IMG/VR virus record: IMGVR_UViG_3300025326_000223
Coordinates: 1-22,105 of that record
Length of the DNA stretch: 22,105 nucleotides
Origin: a virus
Strand: one strand, 5' to 3'
A program made the position numbers and the translations under genes. The notes beneath the pieces are model-generated. The model was not told where the DNA came from and did not search any database. It saw only the letters and a list, made by a program, of their open reading frames with translations. This document shows positions 2,877 to 15,121 of this stretch, piece after piece. Every line of letters begins with the position of its first letter. The first letter of the stretch is position 1.

Positions 2877-4018
2877 CAAATAACTCCATCAATTTTTAGG
2901 GCCATGCGGGAAATCGGAACGTCTGCGATCACATTTTTGAAGCTGGAATATTTTCCAAACACGATGGAGTGCCCGTACGTGCTCGATCCAATGAAAACGA
3001 CATTGCGCTGTCGGAAATCGCGCAGTTGGTCAATCGCCGAATCGATCACATCGTTGTAGATGACCACGTCGAGCGTCATGATTTTCGAGTAGCCGCGTAC
3101 AGTGGTTGAACTGCTTCCGTCCACACCAAAGCGCGTGCTTGAATAGTCTTTGTCCTCGGCGCCAAGGCCAAATACCGTAAAGCCGAACGTGGTCAGCGGG
3201 CCGATGGAAAACATGCCGCATTTGGCCGTGCCGCCCGGCTTGTTGATCGCGACCTGAATCGTTGCGCCGTAGTACATCGGCAGATCTAGATTGAGGTGAA
3301 AATTCTTGCGGCGAATGCGGGCGAAGCACCAGTTGTAATAGCTACTTCCAGACGTGGACTGAATCAGGCTTTCCGTGCTCGTGTACACCACGCCCTCGAC
3401 CGGATCGGTCATCGTCGTAACGATCTCATTCGCGTCAAGGCCGCCCAGGTACAGGCCGCCCGCCAACTGGGCCGGCGTCACCTCGACAATGATCGATTCC
3501 GCATTGGATGTCTGCGTGTTGTTGACCGCATCGAACATTTTGTAGGCGTTCATGACGCCGACCAGCGCCCAGTAAAGCGGACTGGTAGCCGGCGTCTGGC
3601 CGATGGCGTTCTGCGTGATCGTGTGCACGCCTGATTGCGTGCCCGTCGTCGTGATCGCGGCCCCGCCCGCAGTTGCGCTCACGTTGAACGTGTCTGCGAC
3701 AGGGGATTTCACGTAGTACGTCGTGCCAGCCACGAGGCCAGTCGGTAGCGCGCCGGTCGTGGCGAATTTGACCGGTGCATTCGCCGCATAGCCGTGCGCC
3801 ACCTGCGACACCTCGCACGGCGCGGCAATCGTCATGGTGACGGTCGCCGACGTGCCCAATATCTGCTGGTAGATGTCATGCACGTCGGTTGCCACGACAA
3901 TGACACGCTCGCCCGGGCCATAGACGCCCGTCGCGCTGTAGGCCGCGTAATCCGTTTCCGGTACGCTGGTCGATGTGAGAATCGCATCGGTGATGGTTAC
4001 AGGATCAAGGACGATCAT
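2876..4018 (-). CDS. Conserved phage tail protein with an inserted beta domain
   Basis: A 380-residue protein overlapping the tape measure stop as ATGA. Its N-terminal and C-terminal parts resemble a conserved, functionally unnamed phage tail protein found after tape measure genes. Recognisable pieces are DYAAYS near residue 23, NAYKMFDAV near 163, the FGLGAEDKDYSSTRFG region, VRGYSKIMTLDVVI, and FGKYSSFKNVIADVP near the end. Residues 56-137 interrupt this scaffold with a separate beta-rich domain (GALPTGL, TTYYV, SATAGGAAI, TGTQSGVH). The position just after the tape measure suggests a distal tail component. Function is inferred from position only. Confidence 0.75.
   Translation of the reverse strand: MIVLDPVTITDAILTSTSVPETDYAAYSATGVYGPGERVIVVATDVHDIYQQILGTSATVTMTIAAPCEVSQVAHGYAANAPVKFATTGALPTGLVAGTTYYVKSPVADTFNVSATAGGAAITTTGTQSGVHTITQNAIGQTPATSPLYWALVGVMNAYKMFDAVNNTQTSNAESIIVEVTPAQLAGGLYLGGLDANEIVTTMTDPVEGVVYTSTESLIQSTSGSSYYNWCFARIRRKNFHLNLDLPMYYGATIQVAINKPGGTAKCGMFSIGPLTTFGFTVFGLGAEDKDYSSTRFGVDGSSSTTVRGYSKIMTLDVVIYNDVIDSAIDQLRDFRQRNVVFIGSSTYGHSIVFGKYSSFKNVIADVPISRMALKIDGVI
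3608..3853 (-). other. Inserted beta-rich domain, copy in tail protein
   Basis: Codons 56-137 of the tail protein encode a domain with GALPTGL, TTYYV, SATAGGAAI and TGTQSGVHTI. It separates YQQI from PATSPLYW...NAYKMFD, which lie close together in the usual form of this tail protein as I recall the family. The same domain occurs in the head-tail connector of this phage. About 27 of roughly 62 aligned residues are identical by eye. Confidence 0.65.
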
Positions 4019-7000
4019 GCGGACACCTCGACCAAGATTGGGCGCTCGCCGTTGATCGCATCATCAAGCTGGCTCGCGGTTTCTCCGGTATTTTTGGCGA
4101 TGGCGTAGTTCTCCAGGCTGTTCGTTCGGCGCAGTTCGGCAACCTCTGCCGTCAAGCGCTCGACAGCCGCTTCCAGCCGCGACGTGTCGCCGCCCTGCCC
4201 GCGCGTGTACGGATTGTTGTAGGCCGCTGGCGTGATGCGCTCGCCCTCGTGGATCAATGCCAGACCGGTGCGCGGCACGTAGTCGGTACCCACGTCGTAG
4301 CTCGGGACGCTCAAGCCAAATTGCCGCCCAATGCCTGTCGCGGTCATCGACATGGCAGATGCCAATTGAGCGCGCGACAGGCGTAAGTCGAACTCGGTGA
4401 TTGCATTCGCCTCGGCGAGCCGGTCAACCGCCTGCGACAACTGCGGCAGGAGTTTGTAGGCGTCCTCGTCGCCACCGCGCGCCATGGCATTGGTGACGGT
4501 GAATTTCGCCCATGCTGAAGCCAGGGACTGCGCTCCATCGCCAGAAATCAGGCCGCGCAGGCGATCCACCTCGGCGAATATGGTGTCGGTGACGCCCTGC
4601 ATCGCGTTCTTGTGCTGCTCGGCGGCGCGCTTCTGCTCCTCGGCGGCTTGTAGTGCGGCCTGTGCTGCGGCTTGAGCGGCTGCGGCTGCTGCCTGCTCGG
4701 CGGCGATCTTGTCTTGCATGGCAAAAATCGATTCCTTGAGCGCGCGATTCTCCGGGGCGAGTGCGGCAACTTCCATCTTGCGCAAAGCGATGGTGTTACC
4801 GGTCAGCTGGTACATCTCGCGTTGCAGGCCGCCGCGCTCGCTTGCTACCGCACGAGCCGATGCCGCTGCATTCTCAAGCGCCGTTGCAGCCATGGCCGCC
4901 GCTGACGCCTGATCCTGCATCGCGTAGATTTGCGATTGCAGCGGGCGCAGCGTGGCGTTCATGCCGGCCAATTCAAGCTCACGAGCGCGCGCCAGTTGTT
5001 CGGCTGACGTGTGCGTCAAATTGAAGAGCGTCGCCTCCATGCCGGCGCGCTGCGTCATCAGGGCTTGTGCCTGCGATGCTGCCGCCTGCTCTGCGGCCTG
5101 CCCGTCTGCTTGACGCTTGGTGTAGATCGCATCGGCGCGGGCGCGATTCGATTCCATCAGCGTGGCGTGAGCAGCGGTTGCGGCTTGATCTGCCTTGCGG
5201 GCCATGACCAGGTCGTACAACTTGATCGTGCTCTCATCCATGCCGATGATGTCGTCCGCGCGCAGCTGCGCCGAAGTCATCGTCGCACGGTCCATTTCGC
5301 GGATCTGATCGAGGTAGACCTTGTTGGCGGCGGCCAGATCGACCACGCCCTGCGCGATCTGCACGTCGTCGTAGAGCTTGAGATTGCTCGGATCGATCTT
5401 GCCCCGGGCTTTCGCGGCGAGAGCGGTCGGCGACATGGTCAGGCTGTCGAGCTGGTCTTGCAGGCTGGCGGCTTCGCCCAGGATGTCGGCGAGTGATCGC
5501 ACGGCAGTGGCTGCCGACTCGGCGACAGGCGTGAACGATGCGAATGCGCCATTCAGCCGAAGCATTGCAGCAACCGCAGGAGCGCCAGCCTCGCCAAGCG
5601 CCAGCCGCGCCTCGATCTCGGCACGGTATCCTTCGCGCGTCGTCGGCATCGCGACGTTGACGGCGGCCAGGGCGTCAGTCACTTGCTTTGTGACGGATGC
5701 TGTTTTTTCGGACTCGGTGTAGAAATTTTCGTGGTAAGACGATGCATTCGCGACCAGCGCATCAATCCCGCCCGACGCTTTGATCAGCGCCGATGCTGCG
5801 CCATCGCTCAGATTCGCAAATCCGGCCAGGCGCTCGCCCATGACGACAAGCGCCCGCTTCGTGGCATTGATGCTGTCAACGACTTTCGCCATATCATCAA
5901 GCGATGCGCCATCGGCCAGGCCATCAAGCATTCCCTGCGCCCATGATGGCAGGCCGATATCGTCAAGCGCAGTGCGTACCGATGCGCTCAGCGCGGCGAG
6001 ATATTCAGTCTGACCGGCTGCGCCATCAGCGAATTCCTTCGGCGCCCAGCTACCGGTTTTAGTATCCTGCCAATCAACGATCTTTGCGCCCAGTTTGTCG
6101 ATCACGAGCGCGCCCCATGCGCCATCTTTCGATGTGTCGTCAGCAAACGCGGTCGCAGCGGTGTAGCCTGCGGCCTTGCCGAACGCGAGCGCCGTGCTGT
6201 CCAAAATGCTGACGATGCCTGTTACCAGGCCGGCAGTCATTTTCTCCGTGTCGGCATTCGTGCGCGTAGCTTCAAATCCAAGCGACTCGGCGCGGATCGT
6301 AGATACACCTGCCGACGATGCGAAAGATGCGCCGCCAGTGTGGAACGTGCCGGACGTGTCGAGCTTCTTCCAGATGGCGACGGCGGCAGCGATGCCGAGG
6401 GCGATAGGGCCGAGAGCGCCGATGACGGACGAGAATCCCGCGGCCATGCCCGACGCCGTGCCGGTGCCGATGGCGCTCAGGCCAGCACTCAGCGTAGAGC
6501 CTAGCCCGATTTGGCCACTCAGAATTGCGCCAGCGGTCTGCATCGCGCCAGTACCGATGGACGCAAGCGTGCCGCCAATGCCAAGGCTGGAGCCAACCGC
6601 GCTACCTACGCCGCTACTAACGCCAGCCTGCGCAGCGACTGGGATCATCGAGCCTGCCAGCGTACCAGCAACAGGCGCGAGTATCCCCTGGATCGTAGGC
6701 CGCAAGATCAGCGTCTTGAACATGTTCTTGAGCGTGTCCATCAGGTTGCGGCCAAAGGATTTGCCGGACTCGAAGCCGCGCATGAGGGCATCGGTGAGGG
6801 AATTTTCGATTGAGTCGGCGGCCTTCTTCCATGCCGCCATTGCGTCGTCGGCGGCTTTCTTGGCGATTTCCATTTGGTCGAGCGTGGTCGCTGCGGCAGC
6901 GCTGCGCTTCTTCGCGGCAATTACAAGCTCCAGCGCGGCAACCTCGTCATCGGCCATGTCAATACCGCGCAAACGCTCAAGACGATCCTCCATGCGGGCG

Positions 7001-9252
7001 ATTTCCAGCGCCTCGACAGCCGATTTCGTCAGGCCGAATGTGCGCGCCAATTCCTCGTTCTTGTCGGCCTCTTTGATTGCGGACTCGACTGATTTGCCGA
7101 TATTTTCGGCATACTCCGCCTGAATTTTCGCCATCGCATTCGTGCGCTCAATGGCCTGATCTTGCGCGGCCACAGTAGCAATCAGCGCGCGCGTTTCCTC
7201 GATGTGCTTCGGCGTCAGTTTGTTCTTGCCCGATGCAATCAACTCATCGAGCTTGATCGTCATTTTCTGCGCGTCAGAGAGCTTGTCGTACCCGCTCATT
7301 TCGAGCTTGTTGGCTGCGATCTTCTCGCCGATGGATGTGACGAGGTTTTGATATGCGGTTGCTTCTTGAGTGATGACTTTGGCCGCGCCCTTGTCGATAT
7401 ACTTGGCTCGAATAAGCTTTTCCATCTCAGGAGTGAGCGTGCCGACCTTCTTGCGCGTTTCCTCAAGTTCATGCGCCATGCGCTGCGCGGCAGTACCGTT
7501 CCGACCAAACCAATCGGCTAGGCGAGCGCCTTCCGTGCGCTTGGCGGCGGCAGTTACTTCGTCCTGAGCCTGGCCGATGCGAAGTAATGCGGTTTCGTAA
7601 TTGTGCGCGAGGTCGATTTCTGCGAGTTGACGCATGGATGCCGACTGACCGGCGAACGATCCGGAGCCGGACCGGACTTCGTCAAGCGCCTTCTTGGCGC
7701 GCGCAAGCCCGTCCTTGTCAGCATCGCTCAAATCGGTAATGCTTTTTAGTCGCGGCTCAGTGTCTTGAAGGCGATTCCGTTCCTTTAGCTTCTCGATCTG
7801 CTTATCCAGCCGCGAAATCATCTCGGTCGTGGTTTCATCGACAGATGTCAGTGCCTTGTCGTTCGATTCCTTCGTCCTGTTCTCCCACACCATCCATGCG
7901 GTCGCACCAATGCCGATGGCGGCGGTAAGTGCGGTGAGCGGGTTTGCTACAACCCACATCGCAGCACCCAATGCCCTCGTCGCAATGACTGCCCCCCATG
8001 TCGTCGCCGTAAGCCCTGTCGTTGCCACGGCTGCAGCAGTAGTTGCTGCAGTAGACGCGGCTGTTGCGGTGGCAAGGCTTGCCTCGACGGCGATACCGGC
8101 GCGGCCTAGTGCGGCCACTTCGATCATTGCGACAGACCGCGACTGGAGCGCCAACGTTTTTGCGGCATCCGATGCGGTCGAATTAATGACGGCGTTCGCG
8201 CTGGCAATCGTCGCCAGCGTCTCGGCGCGCAACTCCACGATCATGGCGGCGCGAGCCTGAAGGTTGGACACCTCAGCGGCAGTGCTTGCAACCGTGGCTT
8301 GCGCAGACGCTACCGCCGCTTGTGCGGCGGCCACGGTTGCGGCCCTCTGTGCGGTGGATGCGGCTGATGCCGCCAGCGTTTTAGCGGTCAGCGCCTCCAT
8401 CCATACCGCGAGCTTAATCGCGGTGAGCGCAACCATTGCAGTGCCGATTACTGCGAGATTACTCGCTAGCAGGCCAATCGCGCCCGTCAATGCAGCAACT
8501 CCGCCGTTCGCATTCGCCTGAATGCCAACGAATTCCATCAAGTTGCCTTTCAGGACCGTGAAAGCGCCAGAAATGGTCTGAACTTCCTTAGCCTCTTCGC
8601 GCAGCTTTTCCAGTGCGCGGGGCAGAACATCGGCCATAATTTTGGACGTGATTTCGCCGTTTTCGGCCATTTTCTTGAGCGCGCCAACTGGTACGCCGAT
8701 GCCGTCGGCAAGGGCCAGCATAAGGCGTGGCGCCGCCTCGTTGACAGCGTTGAATTCCTCGCCGCGCAGGGTGCCGGATGCGAATGCCTGGGACAGTTGA
8801 AGCTGTGCAGACGCCGATTCCGCAGCGGTCGCGCCAGATACCCTCAGCGCCATATTGACGGTCTCGGTGATCGCGGCAACCTGCTTCTGGGTCGTGCCGA
8901 GCTCTCGCGTTCCGTTCGCTATTCGGGCATATAGCATGCCGGTCGCCTGCAAATCCTGTTGCGCCGCAGTGGCAATGCGCTTCACGTCGCCATAGGCTGC
9001 GGCGTACTCGCGCGCGGACGTTGACGCAAGGCGCAGCTGTGCCGTGAATTTGGCGTAGGCGTCAGACATTTGCACGATCTGCGCAAGCCCAATGCCCATA
9101 CCGATGCCAGCGAGGGCTGACTTGGCAGCGTCAGCGGCGCGGCTCATGCTGGCCGTGGCATTGTTGACTACGCGGCCAGCTTGGTCCATGTCGCGCTGCA
9201 AGCGCGCGATGCCCGCAATAAGTTGAATTTCTAATGTGCCGGCCAGTGCCAT
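4015..9252 (-). CDS. Tape measure protein
   Basis: At 1745 residues this is the largest gene; it sets tail length and is threaded inside the tail tube. The start is taken at ATG 9250-9252 (MALAGTLEIQL). The longer frame to GTG 9306 would read through a terminator hairpin at 9264-9287. The N-terminal third has the phage tape measure signature around residues 150-225 (GEEFNAVNEAAPRLM, then ENGEITSKIM). Hydrophobic segments lie near 255-285, 424-454 and 939-964. A lambda-type tape measure region lies near 812-834 (SIENSLTDALMRGFESGKSFG). Helical repeats are encoded at 4693-5463. The C-terminus has YDVGTDYVPRTGLALIHEGE near residue 1650, typical of these proteins. No clear Shine-Dalgarno precedes the start. 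The length compares with 853 residues in lambda gpH. Confidence 0.95.
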   Translation of the reverse strand: MALAGTLEIQLIAGIARLQRDMDQAGRVVNNATASMSRAADAAKSALAGIGMGIGLAQIVQMSDAYAKFTAQLRLASTSAREYAAAYGDVKRIATAAQQDLQATGMLYARIANGTRELGTTQKQVAAITETVNMALRVSGATAAESASAQLQLSQAFASGTLRGEEFNAVNEAAPRLMLALADGIGVPVGALKKMAENGEITSKIMADVLPRALEKLREEAKEVQTISGAFTVLKGNLMEFVGIQANANGGVAALTGAIGLLASNLAVIGTAMVALTAIKLAVWMEALTAKTLAASAASTAQRAATVAAAQAAVASAQATVASTAAEVSNLQARAAMIVELRAETLATIASANAVINSTASDAAKTLALQSRSVAMIEVAALGRAGIAVEASLATATAASTAATTAAAVATTGLTATTWGAVIATRALGAAMWVVANPLTALTAAIGIGATAWMVWENRTKESNDKALTSVDETTTEMISRLDKQIEKLKERNRLQDTEPRLKSITDLSDADKDGLARAKKALDEVRSGSGSFAGQSASMRQLAEIDLAHNYETALLRIGQAQDEVTAAAKRTEGARLADWFGRNGTAAQRMAHELEETRKKVGTLTPEMEKLIRAKYIDKGAAKVITQEATAYQNLVTSIGEKIAANKLEMSGYDKLSDAQKMTIKLDELIASGKNKLTPKHIEETRALIATVAAQDQAIERTNAMAKIQAEYAENIGKSVESAIKEADKNEELARTFGLTKSAVEALEIARMEDRLERLRGIDMADDEVAALELVIAAKKRSAAAATTLDQMEIAKKAADDAMAAWKKAADSIENSLTDALMRGFESGKSFGRNLMDTLKNMFKTLILRPTIQGILAPVAGTLAGSMIPVAAQAGVSSGVGSAVGSSLGIGGTLASIGTGAMQTAGAILSGQIGLGSTLSAGLSAIGTGTASGMAAGFSSVIGALGPIALGIAAAVAIWKKLDTSGTFHTGGASFASSAGVSTIRAESLGFEATRTNADTEKMTAGLVTGIVSILDSTALAFGKAAGYTAATAFADDTSKDGAWGALVIDKLGAKIVDWQDTKTGSWAPKEFADGAAGQTEYLAALSASVRTALDDIGLPSWAQGMLDGLADGASLDDMAKVVDSINATKRALVVMGERLAGFANLSDGAASALIKASGGIDALVANASSYHENFYTESEKTASVTKQVTDALAAVNVAMPTTREGYRAEIEARLALGEAGAPAVAAMLRLNGAFASFTPVAESAATAVRSLADILGEAASLQDQLDSLTMSPTALAAKARGKIDPSNLKLYDDVQIAQGVVDLAAANKVYLDQIREMDRATMTSAQLRADDIIGMDESTIKLYDLVMARKADQAATAAHATLMESNRARADAIYTKRQADGQAAEQAAASQAQALMTQRAGMEATLFNLTHTSAEQLARARELELAGMNATLRPLQSQIYAMQDQASAAAMAATALENAAASARAVASERGGLQREMYQLTGNTIALRKMEVAALAPENRALKESIFAMQDKIAAEQAAAAAAQAAAQAALQAAEEQKRAAEQHKNAMQGVTDTIFAEVDRLRGLISGDGAQSLASAWAKFTVTNAMARGGDEDAYKLLPQLSQAVDRLAEANAITEFDLRLSRAQLASAMSMTATGIGRQFGLSVPSYDVGTDYVPRTGLALIHEGERITPAAYNNPYTRGQGGDTSRLEAAVERLTAEVAELRRTNSLENYAIAKNTGETASQLDDAINGERPILVEVSA
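4693..5463 (-). repeat. Diverged helical repeats in the tape measure protein
   Basis: Three diverged copies of a helical unit are seen in the protein. Copy 1 is at 5350-5463 (LQDQLDSLT ... DPSNLKLYDDVQIAQ). Copy 2 is at 4891-5052 (QRAGMEATLFNLT ... LRPLQSQIYAMQDQ). Copy 3 is at 4693-4839 (ERGGLQREMYQLT ... APENRALKESIFAMQDK). Each follows the plan L-x-x-L-T, then P-x-N/L-x-x-L, then an I-x-A-x-Q/QD end. Such repeats are common in the tail-length-setting part of tape measure proteins. Confidence 0.6.
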
Positions 9253-10882: not shown

Positions 10883-11281
10883 CTATTCGATGAACATCAC
10901 CATGAAATCGGTCGAGCCCATGAATATCCCTGCCGCGTCATCGCGGAAATCAGGCCCGTCGCTTTCGTTTGCGATGCTGTCCACGTTGACGCCGTTGATA
11001 GTTCCGCGCGTCTCTGGCAGTGCGTCGCGCACGAGCTTGAGAGTCGATTTCTGCGCCGGGTAAGTCGATGCCATAACCGTGACTTGAACGCGGGAGGTGC
11101 AGAACTTGACCAGTGATCCAGCGACGATGCGACGGCGATTCGTTGATACGTGCGTCACGGCGATGGCCGGCAGCGCAGTGCCTTGCGGCACAATCCCGGC
11201 GTAGATACGCGCAGCGGGAACGACAGCGATCATGGCGGCGTTATTAGCCAGAAGGTAGCGGACCGCCTTAACGTCAGACAT
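10883..11281 (-). CDS. Tail completion protein (DUF3168 / gp17-like)
   Basis: A 132-residue protein. The start is taken at ATG 11279-11281 (MSDVKAVRYLLANN) with an AAGG ribosome site 6 bases upstream, inside the end of the methyltransferase gene. The longer frame to 11341 only adds a shadow of that gene. The layout fits the DUF3168 family: an N-terminal helix, IYAGIVPQGTALPAIAVTHV near residues 26-45, a central strand with RVQVTVMA, and a terminal strand. These proteins cap the tail tube and mate it to the head. Placement after head closure and gp10-like genes and before the tube gene agrees. Confidence 0.8.
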   Translation of the reverse strand: MSDVKAVRYLLANNAAMIAVVPAARIYAGIVPQGTALPAIAVTHVSTNRRRIVAGSLVKFCTSRVQVTVMASTYPAQKSTLKLVRDALPETRGTINGVNVDSIANESDGPDFRDDAAGIFMGSTDFMVMFIE

Positions 11282-12371
11282 TGCGAGCCTTGCGCTTCGG
11301 TGCTGAGATGCGCTCGTATGCCAGCCATGTGCCATCGACATGCTCGATGTTCGCGCCGCCTGCTCTCAACTCGGCCAGAGTTTCGGTCACTTGCATGTCT
11401 GCGCGCCCGTTGTCATCGTGGAAAACGATGACGCCGCCCGGCTGGACGATTGCCTTGGCGAGCGCGTAGTCATTCAGCACGCCGTCACGCGAGTGGTCGC
11501 CGTCGATGAAAACCGCGTCGCATTGCGGCAGATCGGCAGGCAGTAGGTCGAACGTGCCGCGCGGGCGCGTTACAAGATGAAAGCGCGGGTCGTCGGCAGC
11601 GAGCACGCCAGGATGCACAGGGACCTCGTTGCGCTGCGCTGTGAGCGTCGTTTGATGGCCTTGCTCAGCGTCCACGCCGATATAGCTCGTGATGCTCGGC
11701 ACGGCGCGCAGGATGGCGGCAGCGGTGCGCCCGGCATTGCAGCCGAATTCAGCCACCGTCAGCGGGTTGATTGATGCAATAAGATCGATCAGGGCGGCTG
11801 TATCGTCGGGATTCGTGTAATCGGGCAGCGCATCGAGCACGGCGGCCGGCTTCGGATCACCTTCGACCTCGACACCCTTTGCGCGAAGTTCTGCGCACAG
11901 TGCGGCAAGGCCTTTGGTCAGGCCGGGGTACTTGTCCCAATCGCTGTCTGCGGCGCCGTAGAAGTGCGCGAATGGCTCAGGATCAAAGCCGATCAGCACG
12001 ATCTTGGCAGCGCCGCACATCGCGGCCAGCCGGATAGCGGCAAGCCCGTTGTTGCGCACTTCGATCTGATGTCCGGGGCCGAGCGTCGCGCGCTCATGTG
12101 GGATGTTCGCGTACATCGCGTCCAGATCGCACTCGACGCCGCAAACGCGGATACCGGCAAAGCCTTCCGATTCGGCCCAAAAGCCAAAGTTTGGCGGGCC
12201 GTCCAGCGCGAGAACTAAGTCAGCGTCGGGCGCGAGGCGGAAGGCGCGGCGAACGGCGATGCGTGGCAGATGCTTGACGCTGTCGGCTACCTCTTGCGTC
12301 AGGCTCGGCCCGGATGCGAGCACGGCGACGGTTGCGCCTTGCCATGCCGGTGCTTTAAATGGAGTGGTCAT
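11274..12371 (-). CDS. Two-domain enzyme: MptE/DUF115-like domain fused to an SAM-dependent methyltransferase
   Basis: A 365-residue protein starting at ATG 12369-12371 with an AAGGA site 6 bases upstream, which overlaps the stop of the gp10-like gene. Residues 10-180 resemble the Rossmann-like domain of DUF115 / MptE-like phage proteins: VAVLASGPSLT (15-25), RRAFRLAPDADLVLALDG (41-58), RNNGLAAIRLA (106-116) and GAAKIVLIGFD (120-130). Residues 190-350 look like a class I methyltransferase of the Methyltransf_24 type: VAEFGCNAGRTA (206-217) as the SAM loop, IGVDA (231-235), DAVFIDGDHSRDG (285-297) and PGGVIVFHDDN (311-321). The substrate cannot be read from sequence. Lying among head-tail completion genes, it could modify a virion protein, a glycan or a nucleotide. 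It overlaps the downstream start by 8 bases. Confidence 0.8.
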   Translation of the reverse strand: MTTPFKAPAWQGATVAVLASGPSLTQEVADSVKHLPRIAVRRAFRLAPDADLVLALDGPPNFGFWAESEGFAGIRVCGVECDLDAMYANIPHERATLGPGHQIEVRNNGLAAIRLAAMCGAAKIVLIGFDPEPFAHFYGAADSDWDKYPGLTKGLAALCAELRAKGVEVEGDPKPAAVLDALPDYTNPDDTAALIDLIASINPLTVAEFGCNAGRTAAAILRAVPSITSYIGVDAEQGHQTTLTAQRNEVPVHPGVLAADDPRFHLVTRPRGTFDLLPADLPQCDAVFIDGDHSRDGVLNDYALAKAIVQPGGVIVFHDDNGRADMQVTETLAELRAGGANIEHVDGTWLAYERISAPKRKARNV

Positions 12372-12876: not shown

Positions 12877-13226
12877 TACGCCCCCGCCGTCGAGTATAGT
12901 TCGACCATGATTTCGATACCGGCCTTGCGGCCAATTTCAGCCGGACCTGCGACGATCTGATACGTGCGATCGGTCACGCCATGCCGCACAATGCGCATGT
13001 CGGACGTGATGCCAGCCCGGTATCCGATGCGTACGCGCGCCGGCTGCGATGCAATCCGAATACCGTTTGCGGTCGATTCCGATTTGCTCGGCAGCGAGTC
13101 CAGGAACTCGGCGGCGATGCGCGAGGCGACGACAACCCACGGCCCGGGCTCTTGACCGTAGTCGCCGGCTGCTACTGTGCTCGGGCGCTCAATGGTGATG
13201 CGCGAATATTTTTTGCCGGCGTCCAT
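12876..13226 (-). CDS. Head closure / head-tail adaptor protein (SPP1 gp16, HK97 gp7 type)
   Basis: A 116-residue beta-rich protein with ATG at 13224-13226, overlapping the connector stop by one base. The family layout is visible: an N-terminal strand (YSRITIERPS), GPWVVVASRIAAEFLDSLPS in the middle, then MRIVRHGVTDRTYQIVAG and a terminal strand (GIEIMVELYSTAG). Such proteins bind under the connector and stop DNA leaking from the filled head. Size and order between connector and gp10-like genes are as expected. Confidence 0.85.
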   Translation of the reverse strand: MDAGKKYSRITIERPSTVAAGDYGQEPGPWVVVASRIAAEFLDSLPSKSESTANGIRIASQPARVRIGYRAGITSDMRIVRHGVTDRTYQIVAGPAEIGRKAGIEIMVELYSTAGA

Positions 13227-14038
13227 CAGAACCCTATTACTTTGTGTGGGAAAAGTATCTTTGTCGCTCCCATAGGGATCTCATACGATTGAAAGTCGCC
13301 CGCCTGCTCGCGCCTGTTGTACCAATGGCCGATGAGTAGCAGCATGGCCAGACGCATGGCGGTCCATGTCGAATCATCAGCGCCGCCGATGAAGTGCGTG
13401 CCAGTGCCGGCCCCGGTGATGTCGATTGCTGCTCCGCCCGATGTGGCGGAAAGCTGCATCGTGTTGCCAGAGACGCCGATTGCGTAGTAGTCGGTGCGTA
13501 CAGCCAATCCAGCAGGCAGCGCGCCGCCCGTATTGATTCCTCGCACCACGTCGCCGGTCGCAAACGGATGGCCGGCAGCGGTCAGGATATTGGTCGTCGC
13601 ATCAACAGTGAACGGCGTTGCGTAGCCGGCCACGAAATCGACCGTCACGGCGGCGGGGTGCTCGTATGTGCTCGGCCACGTAGCGGCGTATGCGCGCGTG
13701 ACGATGCCGGGCAGTTCTGCCAAGTCGGTCACATAGTCGGCAGCGGCGAGCGTTTGCGATGCGCCAGCCGTGTCGAGATACGTGATCGCCGATACCTTGC
13801 GCAGCGGCGCGCGTAGGTCGATCCGATCAGGCCAGTCGGGGAACGTCGAGCGTAAGCCCTGCGTAACCATGATGCGATTCGTTGCGGACTCAACGTGTGC
13901 GCGGGCGACCGGGATCAAGGCGGAAATCAGCGCGTCCTCGTCGGTAAGGTCGGCATCGCAGCGAACGTGCAATTTCGCCTCTATCAAACTAACCGGCTCC
14001 GCCCCTGGCCCTGTTCGCGTCATGACATTACCAATCAC
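13226..14038 (-). CDS. Head-tail connector protein (HK97 gp6-like) with inserted domain
   Basis: A 270-residue protein, longer than the roughly 110-200 residues usual for gp6-like connectors. The start is GTG 14036-14038; an ATG five codons further in is possible. Residues 15-60 are the helical N-terminal part (PVSLIEAKLHVRCDADLTDE). Residues 80-140 form the strand region ending in VTVDFVAGYA. Residues 228-270 are the C-terminal helix and tail (MRLAMLLLIGHWYNRRE near 227-243). Between them, residues 141-220 are an extra beta domain (GALPAGL, TDYYA, SATSGGAAI, TGAGTGTH). It forms the dodecamer-type ring below the portal. The gene starts inside the end of the homing endonuclease gene (11-base overlap) and has only a weak ribosome site, so it probably depends on coupling. 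Confidence 0.88.
   Translation of the reverse strand: MIGNVMTRTGPGAEPVSLIEAKLHVRCDADLTDEDALISALIPVARAHVESATNRIMVTQGLRSTFPDWPDRIDLRAPLRKVSAITYLDTAGASQTLAAADYVTDLAELPGIVTRAYAATWPSTYEHPAAVTVDFVAGYATPFTVDATTNILTAAGHPFATGDVVRGINTGGALPAGLAVRTDYYAIGVSGNTMQLSATSGGAAIDITGAGTGTHFIGGADDSTWTAMRLAMLLLIGHWYNRREQAGDFQSYEIPMGATKILFPHKVIGF
13379..13618 (-). other. Inserted beta-rich domain, copy in head-tail connector
   Basis: Codons 141-220 of the connector encode an extra domain with GALPAGL, RTDYYA, SATSGGAAI and TGAGTGTHFI. In ordinary gp6-like connectors the strand ending in FVAGY is followed within a short loop by the WYNRRE-type helix, so the domain is placed in that loop. The same domain sits in the tail protein at 2876-4018. 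Confidence 0.65.
13988..14038 (-). repeat. Recoded copy of connector codons 1-17 (in front of the intact connector)
   Basis: Encodes MIGNVMTRTGPGAEPVS. It matches the copy at 14772-14822 in 14 of 17 residues but only about 33 of 51 bases. Most differences are synonymous, so this looks like a diverged homologous 5' end rather than a fresh duplication. Confidence 0.85.
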
Positions 14039-14822
14039 GATAAGCCCACTTTCTTAGATTAATGTCGCAAATTACCTGTCTTGAGCATTGAAATGCCCCT
14101 GCAATTTCACTGTATGAAAGGTTCGCCCCAATGAGATTTCGTATTGAATTGGCCTGATCTGGCGTGAATCGCCGCTGCACATCGCCTATTTGCTTGCGCC
14201 GCTCATCGGAGTATTTTTTACCTTTATGTGCGGCGCCGATTTTCGCGCAATGCTCTTCCGTTAGGCTTACTCCGGCGCGCTTTAGCGACATCGCCAACCG
14301 TGATTTATCGCTATGCACATGCCCGGCGAATGGAGCCCTGCCCCTTGATTTTGCCGCGATCTTTGCCTTTGTTTCATCGGAATGCTTAAGGCCAAGTGCA
14401 TGCTTATTCCCAACCAGCCGAATAGACACCTTAGCGCACGTTTCGGCAGAATGCTTCACCCCTAACGGGCTGCCGGCAGTTGGCGAGATGTTATAGCCTC
14501 GTGCGACGGAATCCATTTCATCAATCCAAGCCTGCTCGCGTGCGACAAGATCGCGCGCCTCGGGCACAACTTCGATGATGGAGAAACTAAAGGCGGATTC
14601 ACCGTATTTATTCCAGGCGTTTTGCAACTTGCCGGAGTGATGCTTGTTCAGTGCCAGGCTACTTCTGTGCGAATTAAATCTACGCTTAAAGTTGACGGCG
14701 CTGCCAACATATGCCTTGCCACTAGCAATATGGGCGATCACGTAGATCCCGCCCCGCATAAGGTCGCCATTTGACACTGGCTCAGCGCCGGGGCTTGTGC
14801 GCACAATCACGTTACCGATCAT
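14028..14822 (-). CDS. GIY-YIG homing endonuclease fused to captured connector start codons
   Basis: A 264-residue protein. Residues 1-17 (MIGNVIVRTSPGAEPVS) are a copy of the connector N-terminus. The endonuclease proper begins near Met22. The GIY-YIG nuclease domain spans about 23-112: GIY at 25-27, YVG at 38-40, KRRF with a candidate Arg near 48, a candidate catalytic Glu at 97 (AREQAWID), and GYN at 109-111. Four to five NUMOD3-like DNA-binding repeats follow at 120-212 (for example GVKHSAETCAKV and GLKHSDETKAKI). A helix-turn-helix lies near 235-255 (YSEIAGAFQCSRQVICDIN). It uses the AAGG ribosome site that originally served the connector, and its ATG overlaps the preceding TAA. GC is about 50%, near 40% at its 3' end, which supports transfer. 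Confidence 0.9.
   Translation of the reverse strand: MIGNVIVRTSPGAEPVSNGDLMRGGIYVIAHIASGKAYVGSAVNFKRRFNSHRSSLALNKHHSGKLQNAWNKYGESAFSFSIIEVVPEARDLVAREQAWIDEMDSVARGYNISPTAGSPLGVKHSAETCAKVSIRLVGNKHALGLKHSDETKAKIAAKSRGRAPFAGHVHSDKSRLAMSLKRAGVSLTEEHCAKIGAAHKGKKYSDERRKQIGDVQRRFTPDQANSIRNLIGANLSYSEIAGAFQCSRQVICDINLRKWAYRDW
14772..14822 (-). repeat. Captured copy of connector codons 1-17 (N-terminus of the endonuclease gene)
   Basis: Encodes MIGNVIVRTSPGAEPVS in frame with the endonuclease. It keeps the original junction with the upstream gene: an AAGG ribosome site and a TAATG overlap. This argues that it is the ancestral connector start at this locus. Confidence 0.85.
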
Positions 14823-15121
14823 TATTTCGCCTTGCGGTTATATGGGCGCTTGCCGGTGTCGAGCATCTTGTTTTCTGGCGCGACTTCGACGGCTTTTACC
14901 TCTGGCTCGGCGACGAGCTCGATCATGTCGGGCTGCGCGGCAACTTGTGGCCTGGGCGCGTCGGCCGGAGCCTCAACCGCCATGCGCGCAGCGACGAAGG
15001 CTTGCGCCAGGTCGCGCGCGCCGGGCGTGCCGGTCAGGTCATATTCCTTTTCGGCCTCGTAGGTCGCGACGCGGATTCCGTCGAGCGAGCCAGGAACGGT
15101 TTTCAGCATGCGGATTTTCAT
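14822..15121 (-). CDS. Small conserved phage protein of the head region, unknown function
   Basis: A 99-residue protein with ATG at 15119-15121, two bases after the previous stop. The N-terminus (MKIRMLKTVPGSLDGI) and the early KEYDLT followed by ARDLAQAFVAARMA match a small phage protein type often found between capsid and connector genes. The second half is rich in proline, alanine and charged residues and probably disordered, ending in a basic NRKAK. No function is known to me. Its TAA overlaps the start of the endonuclease, the place where the connector would normally begin. Confidence 0.75.
   Translation of the reverse strand: MKIRMLKTVPGSLDGIRVATYEAEKEYDLTGTPGARDLAQAFVAARMAVEAPADAPRPQVAAQPDMIELVAEPEVKAVEVAPENKMLDTGKRPYNRKAK

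Follow-up and report, generated by a model that had tools for sequence, protein, structure and literature searches.

In the window, which is the whole 22.1-kb record of a tailed phage analysed here, a GIY-YIG endonuclease gene appears to have entered the head-tail connector gene in frame, behind its codon 17, fusing the native connector start to the enzyme and leaving the connector to restart from a diverged second copy of its first 17 codons. We give this reading a probability of roughly 0.6. The evidence for it comes from the two copies of the start, from relatives in which the endonuclease is absent and from similar layouts at other phage loci.

Two copies of the connector start

Terminase, portal, protease, capsid, connector and head-completion genes, identified in the window by profile matches, all lie on the minus strand, and the 264-aa endonuclease gene sits between a 99-aa gene (up99) and the connector (Table 1). 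The first 17 codons of the endonuclease frame read MIGNVIVRTSPGAEPVS and those of the connector read MIGNVMTRTGPGAEPVS, its GTG start being taken as M; the two agree at 14 of 17 residues and 33 of 51 bases, and the likeness ends abruptly past codon 17. Identity at first, second and third codon positions is 13, 15 and 5 of 17, respectively, so that 28 of the 34 first and second positions are identical, third positions are nearly saturated and only three codons are the same. The anchored score of this pair was 68, compared with a maximum of 36 for the 4,716 pairings of endonuclease leaders with other loci's downstream starts that served as the null (0/4,716 as high), and the match is therefore not due to chance. 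The result is a partial gene duplication beside an endonuclease ORF, in which protein is conserved and DNA has diverged. The connector GTG lies inside the endonuclease C-terminus with an overlap of 11 bases, and connector translation may be coupled. Both the repeat and the overlap, to which the initial annotation had drawn attention, were confirmed (frames 14822..14028 and 14038..13226), as was the recoded second start, which is complete and differs strongly from the captured copy.

Table 1. Features of the endonuclease-connector region (window coordinates)
Feature	Position	Strand	Remarks
Upstream 99-aa gene (up99)	14822..15121	-	Stop overlaps captured start (TAATG); native left border of connector
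Endonuclease frame	14822..14028	-	264 aa
Captured 5' end of ancestral connector (17 codons)	14772..14822	-	Now endonuclease N-terminus
Four-codon linker NGDL and ATG codon 22	14757..14771	-	Met22 aligns with I-TevI Met1
GIY-YIG catalytic domain	14490..14753	-	PF01541 E=2e-12; Y27, Y38, R48, H52, E96, N111 intact; pLDDT >90
NUMOD3 DNA-binding motif, better of two stretches	14286..14393	-	PF07460 E=4e-11
Overlap, 11 bases	14028..14038	-	Last endonuclease codons (..RDW, stop) and the GTG at which the connector restarts
Recoded second start, 17 connector codons	13988..14038	-	Third positions nearly saturated relative to captured copy
Head-tail connector gene, full length from second start	13226..14038	-	270 aa; PF05135 E=6e-7; phrog_40, phrog_442

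The same sequence was found in three further IMG/VR contigs at 99.98-100% identity, which excludes a single-assembly artefact. One contig of this population (L004) ends at window position 14841, 19 bases upstream of the captured start, and the match of another contig (L003) stops at 12106; either may mark a strain fork, and the former could reflect variants that lack the endonuclease.

The downstream gene is a phage head-tail connector (gp6-like) by its domain and family matches and by its capsid and Phage_HCP neighbours. Its residues ~143-218 (window 13385-13612) form an inserted module that recurs at 39-50% identity at window 3614-3835, where the phage encodes a tail-fibre-like protein, and that prophage-bearing genomes contain in frames as long as 10,394 aa; the connectors of loci L010, L011 and L021 lack this module, which looks like a shuffled surface module. 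Amid the head-tail genes, window 11274-12371 (minus strand) encodes a 365-aa protein that weakly matches two PHROG families, one of sialyltransferases and one of DNA methyltransferases, and L021 has a similar-looking gene in the same place.

The upstream enzyme has the catalytic Tyr, Arg, Glu and Asn of a GIY-YIG homing endonuclease. Its PF01541 score was 47.5 bits against a curated cut-off of 22.6, residues Y27, Y38, R48, E96 and N111 are invariant across 14 relatives, and two PF07460 stretches form a modular DNA-binding region of the NUMOD type. In a phmmer comparison with the I-TevI catalytic domain (1mk0), residues 22-114 pair with its residues 1-93 (E=5e-16). Because residue 22 aligns with I-TevI residue 1, residues 1-21, which comprise the 17 captured codons and the NGDL linker, are an added tail, and the ATG at codon 22 is probably the native endonuclease start. 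This leader has no counterpart in homologues, most of which are short-leadered (median of 6 codons from the nearest ATG to the GIY motif). In the predicted structure the first residues have low confidence and no secondary structure, and the catalytic domain exceeds 90 pLDDT. Given the internal ATG, the endonuclease may not need the captured start.

The connector junction in relatives without the endonuclease

Two relatives that lack the endonuclease have a single connector start each: L181, a Massilia sp. TS11 prophage, and L020, an IMG/VR contig. A single-protein search of genome contigs gave no close connector relatives, which were found with alignment A2; a whole-family alignment was too diverse for use as a search query. 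The L181 connector is 54% identical to that of the window over its full length and starts MIGNTIIRRGPGAEPVSLAEAK, with a GTG that overlaps the stop of the up99 homologue (GTGA), and a search of the L181 genome for the endonuclease gave no match. The L020 connector (55% identity over its full length) starts MRGNIVVTTGPLVEPISLAEAK, two bases past the homologous stop (TGA-CC-ATG). In both, the up99 homologue is immediately before the connector (49% identity in L181, 60% in L020). Since a single connector start stands directly behind the same upstream gene in L181 and L020, the endonuclease start occupies the place of the native connector start, and the two relatives provide the empty site of a terminus-carrying mobile ORF.

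These results bear out the proposal of the initial annotation that the endonuclease captured the connector start: the empty site is present in both relatives, which carry one copy and not two, so that the proposal survives the refuting test named with it, and the leader is missing in homologues and precedes I-TevI residue 1. Its further claim that the upstream copy keeps the original junction stands for the position, which is the same in the endonuclease-less relatives, but not for the exact TAATG string, which neither of them has. Its overall interpretation is partly supported; the enzyme may cut within the first ~50 bp of the connector, and the recoded copy may resist it.

A third locus, L021 (capsid protein 71% identical), carries ~2.9 kb of other genes between the up99 homologue and a diverged connector (5288-8204), making this junction an insertion hot spot. 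Locus L048 has a 45% identical connector (73-846) and, ~3 kb downstream and beside another gene, a 46% identical endonuclease (4001-4411).

Origin of the second start and competing explanations

We compared both copies with the L181 connector at conserved residues. The captured copy shares 6/12 codons (35/51 nt), and the neighbouring genes share 53-61% (up99, 25/46; up123, 43/80; capsid, 186/307). The downstream copy shares 2/12, and the rest of the connector shares 53/130, with 12/23 for codons 18-60. These values point to the upstream copy as native and to the downstream 17 codons as recoded, but the contrast of 6/12 with 2/12 is not significant alone (Fisher p=0.19) and 51 bases are too few for a tree. 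When the second start was compared with the body of the connector gene, p was 0.13 with L181 and 0.018 when the two relatives, which are not independent, were pooled. A mosaic origin of the whole connector was considered but is not claimed, as its sharing with L181 (53/130) is lower than that of up99 and up123 but equal to that of gp10 (36/86).

A stronger argument than the codon-sharing contrast concerns drift. Tandem duplication of the connector start at the insertion, followed by ordinary drift of both copies in place, needs no donor, and duplications next to insertions are common. However, third positions are saturated while 28/34 first and second positions and 14/17 residues were kept, even though the endonuclease-borne copy no longer has a reason to keep a connector peptide, and near-saturation is also seen at other loci; we therefore consider this course distinctly unlikely. 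Released from connector constraint for as long as silent saturation takes, a copy would have lost the peptide; most of the divergence therefore preceded the fusion, or else it arose on the connector side.

The reading that we favour, insertion in frame after codon 17 with a diverged restart, may be set out as follows. A free-standing GIY-YIG homing endonuclease gene would have entered the connector of an ancestral phage, its enzyme cutting the recipient gene within its 5' region. On the left of the break, the native start would be joined directly to the endonuclease frame (illegitimate joining), and the right end would recombine within the gene by homologous repair, bringing a diverged start. 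The native start behind the stop of the upstream gene would now drive the endonuclease as an N-terminal fusion, and the connector would restart at the endonuclease stop from a second copy of the 17 codons that differs at synonymous positions almost everywhere. Selection would keep the in-frame joints, by which the enzyme is expressed, and restarts at the stop, by which the essential gene is translated. We infer that the insertion was one-sided, that the ancestral cut site lay close to the end of the captured segment and that the second start is a diverged allele that arrived with the endonuclease; "one-sided" homing, in which repair is completed through homology at one end and by an illegitimate joint at a microhomology at the other, is documented for phage T4 (PMC2988022). 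A faithful copy of the start next to codon 18 would recreate the target; to restore the protein without it, the start would have to be recoded, and a recoded start would make the arrangement self-protecting. For the recoding proposed in the initial annotation, an equally good origin would be the arrival of a second start that had already diverged, protection being a consequence and not an adaptation. A donor of the second start was not found.

Plain co-conversion would have brought in the endonuclease together with the adjoining 5' end of a connector from a different phage; the copies would then differ through ordinary divergence, without any part in protection, and two diverged functional alleles would account for the synonymous pattern. 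The shared-codon rate fits independent codon choice, as this explanation expects, and nuclease genes have been found at phage recombination boundaries (PMC10448857). Against it, codon sharing with L181 is normal at codons 18-60 (12/23) but not at codons 2-17 (2/12), although the numbers are small; the foreign tract, if real, therefore ends near the captured length, and we regard this explanation as somewhat unlikely. A role for the captured start mainly as an operator, with the enzyme binding a relic of its target and repressing its own expression, would follow the analogy of I-TevI, which binds an operator resembling its homing site (PMC2988022). The relic and an adjacent TGTGCTATAAT element look, by eye, strongly conserved between loci of a prohead-protease family, but a scan of the window gave no sigma-70-like promoter on this strand and the second start would be left unexplained, and such a role seems very unlikely. 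A further alternative is a group I intron or intein with its open frame fused to the 5' exon, and intron endonucleases can be translated as such fusions. Yet no Rfam match to a group I intron was found in the window or in five other loci, no intein Pfam domain was detected, and the endonuclease has its own stop codon and the whole connector start is repeated, neither of which splicing would need. This alternative is hardly credible, and the initial annotation was right to propose an insertion without a splicing element.

Similar layouts in other phages and known systems

We gathered relatives of the endonuclease from viral contigs and, for 119 non-redundant loci, compared the endonuclease leader with the start of the gene that begins at most 60 bases from the endonuclease stop, with cross-paired loci as the null. 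Anchored scores of at least 19 were obtained for 6 loci against 0.5 expected, and scores of at least 25 for 4 loci against 0.08 expected. Three further cases are strong, with the downstream gene identified by Pfam: in L040 the leader MKAPILITGAARSG precedes a sulfotransferase-family gene (MNKINNLPSPILITGAARSGTS), in L472 the leader MMQIDLPYPPSSNR precedes RusA (MITIELPYPISSNRYW), and in L059 the leader MADLGTLYGS precedes a tape-measure gene (MADLGSLVVSFG). Two cases are weaker: L077 (GIDIS versus GVDIS), whose downstream gene is lysozyme-like by eye and is a fragment without a Pfam match, and the prohead-protease family of L079 and L088 (MPRLAK), which was counted as weak because only six residues match and it has its own promoter-like element. 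Overlap between restart and endonuclease stop amounts to 11 bases in the window, 1 in L040, 4 in L472 and 8 in L059, and to 4, 8 and 13 bases in L077, L079 and L088. Leader similarities in L008 and L054 were at chance level, and matches in Valrath and PhiXhv-5 that apparently start at query residues 3 and 12 were leader read-through and not captures.

Near-saturation of the start copies recurs in these loci. Over seven aligned cases, 12/52 codons are shared at conserved residues, which is not significantly below the 16.4 ± 3.3 expected from independent codon choice; the start pairs thus appear saturated but not beyond saturation, strong selection for recoding beyond that level is not supported, and active recoding is not demonstrated. 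The same layout before other genes in several unrelated phages looks, from these comparisons, like a recurrent way to insert without harming the host. More tentatively, and at less than even odds, phages may harbour homing endonuclease genes that form a natural class: their targets would be the opening codons of essential genes, whose start signal they would take over, and the recoded start that they bring along would both rescue the gene and abolish the target. Such a home-and-rescue drive would be natural and would have arisen repeatedly.

The closest described case is that of the fungal mitochondrial mobile ORFs (Glomus sp. atp6, atp9, cox2 and nad3; Allomyces macrogynus atp6; PMC3630166), which likewise place an endonuclease ORF beside a duplicated end of the target gene with mostly synonymous change. 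For Glomus sp. atp6 the identity between copies is 63.5% at the DNA and 91% at the protein level (PMC3630166), compared with 65% and 82% here. In the fungi it is the native copy that is like those of relatives, and the inserted one, which completes the host gene, is foreign-looking; the window counterpart is a trend only (6/12 versus 2/12, p=0.19). The fungal elements replace the 3' end, mostly encode LAGLIDADG enzymes and are mitochondrial, whereas the window has a 5' end, a GIY-YIG enzyme and a phage, and, unlike in the fungal ORFs, the enzyme acquires the start of the gene, which then begins anew at the stop of the enzyme. As the duplicated segment is the 5' and not the 3' end, the window is a variant of the Glomus/Allomyces type and not a member of it. 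Our literature search, which found this fungal 3'-end precedent, found no phage 5'-end case, which is weak evidence because subscription journals were thinly covered.

The window enzyme also resembles the free-standing segA-segG genes of T-even phages in being of the GIY-YIG family, intron-free and located between conserved genes. The part of PMC2988022 that deals with these genes describes them as intergenic, notes for some of them an overlap with the gene upstream and possible translational coupling, and does not mention a captured or repeated gene start. I-TevI of phage T4 is similar in its catalytic domain, aligned from residue 1, and in its NUMOD3-type DNA-binding region, but it is intron-encoded with its own start, whereas the window enzyme has an extra 21-residue leader. 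The likeness to synthetic home-and-rescue or cleave-and-rescue drives (e.g. PMC7968924) is one of logic only, a nuclease with a recoded part of an essential target; those are engineered, CRISPR-based systems in which protection was designed and tested, whereas here it is inferred. If correct, our reading would account for the entry of intron-less endonuclease genes into essential phage genes without host death and for the source of their expression signals. It would also supply recoded-rescue drives with a natural counterpart from phages and would mirror, at the 5' end, the foreign gene ends carried by fungal mitochondrial elements. The ancestral target site would be marked in the sequence by the point at which the captured segment ends, making the cut sites of many uncharacterised enzymes predictable.

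In L079, L088, L415, L416, L418 and L420, the MPRLAK segment and the adjacent TGTGCTATAAT element, ~150-200 bases upstream of the endonuclease, are strikingly conserved in DNA, and the endonucleases of these loci are only ~50-63% identical; the conserved stretch is a possible operator or promoter.

A further, weaker case, spotted by eye and left out of the recurrence statistics, was seen in L541, from a bacterial genome (G145) drawn as family kin of the Massilia genome, with an endonuclease 44% identical to that of the window. Its leader, MSIIEPGTGLPNAS, precedes a DnaT_2/head-tail-adaptor start, MTLIVEDGIGRAIADSY, a truncated third copy, MLIIEVGAGLPDADS, lies upstream, and a connector homologue is just downstream. 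The three start copies of the DnaT_2/head-tail-adaptor gene (reverse-complement 1921, 2030 and 2716; contig C57 of G145, 39500-44500) are the truncated relic with a terminator-like hairpin behind it, the leader of the endonuclease, and a restart whose frame is only 37 residues long. This triple start suggests repeated insertion at one site.
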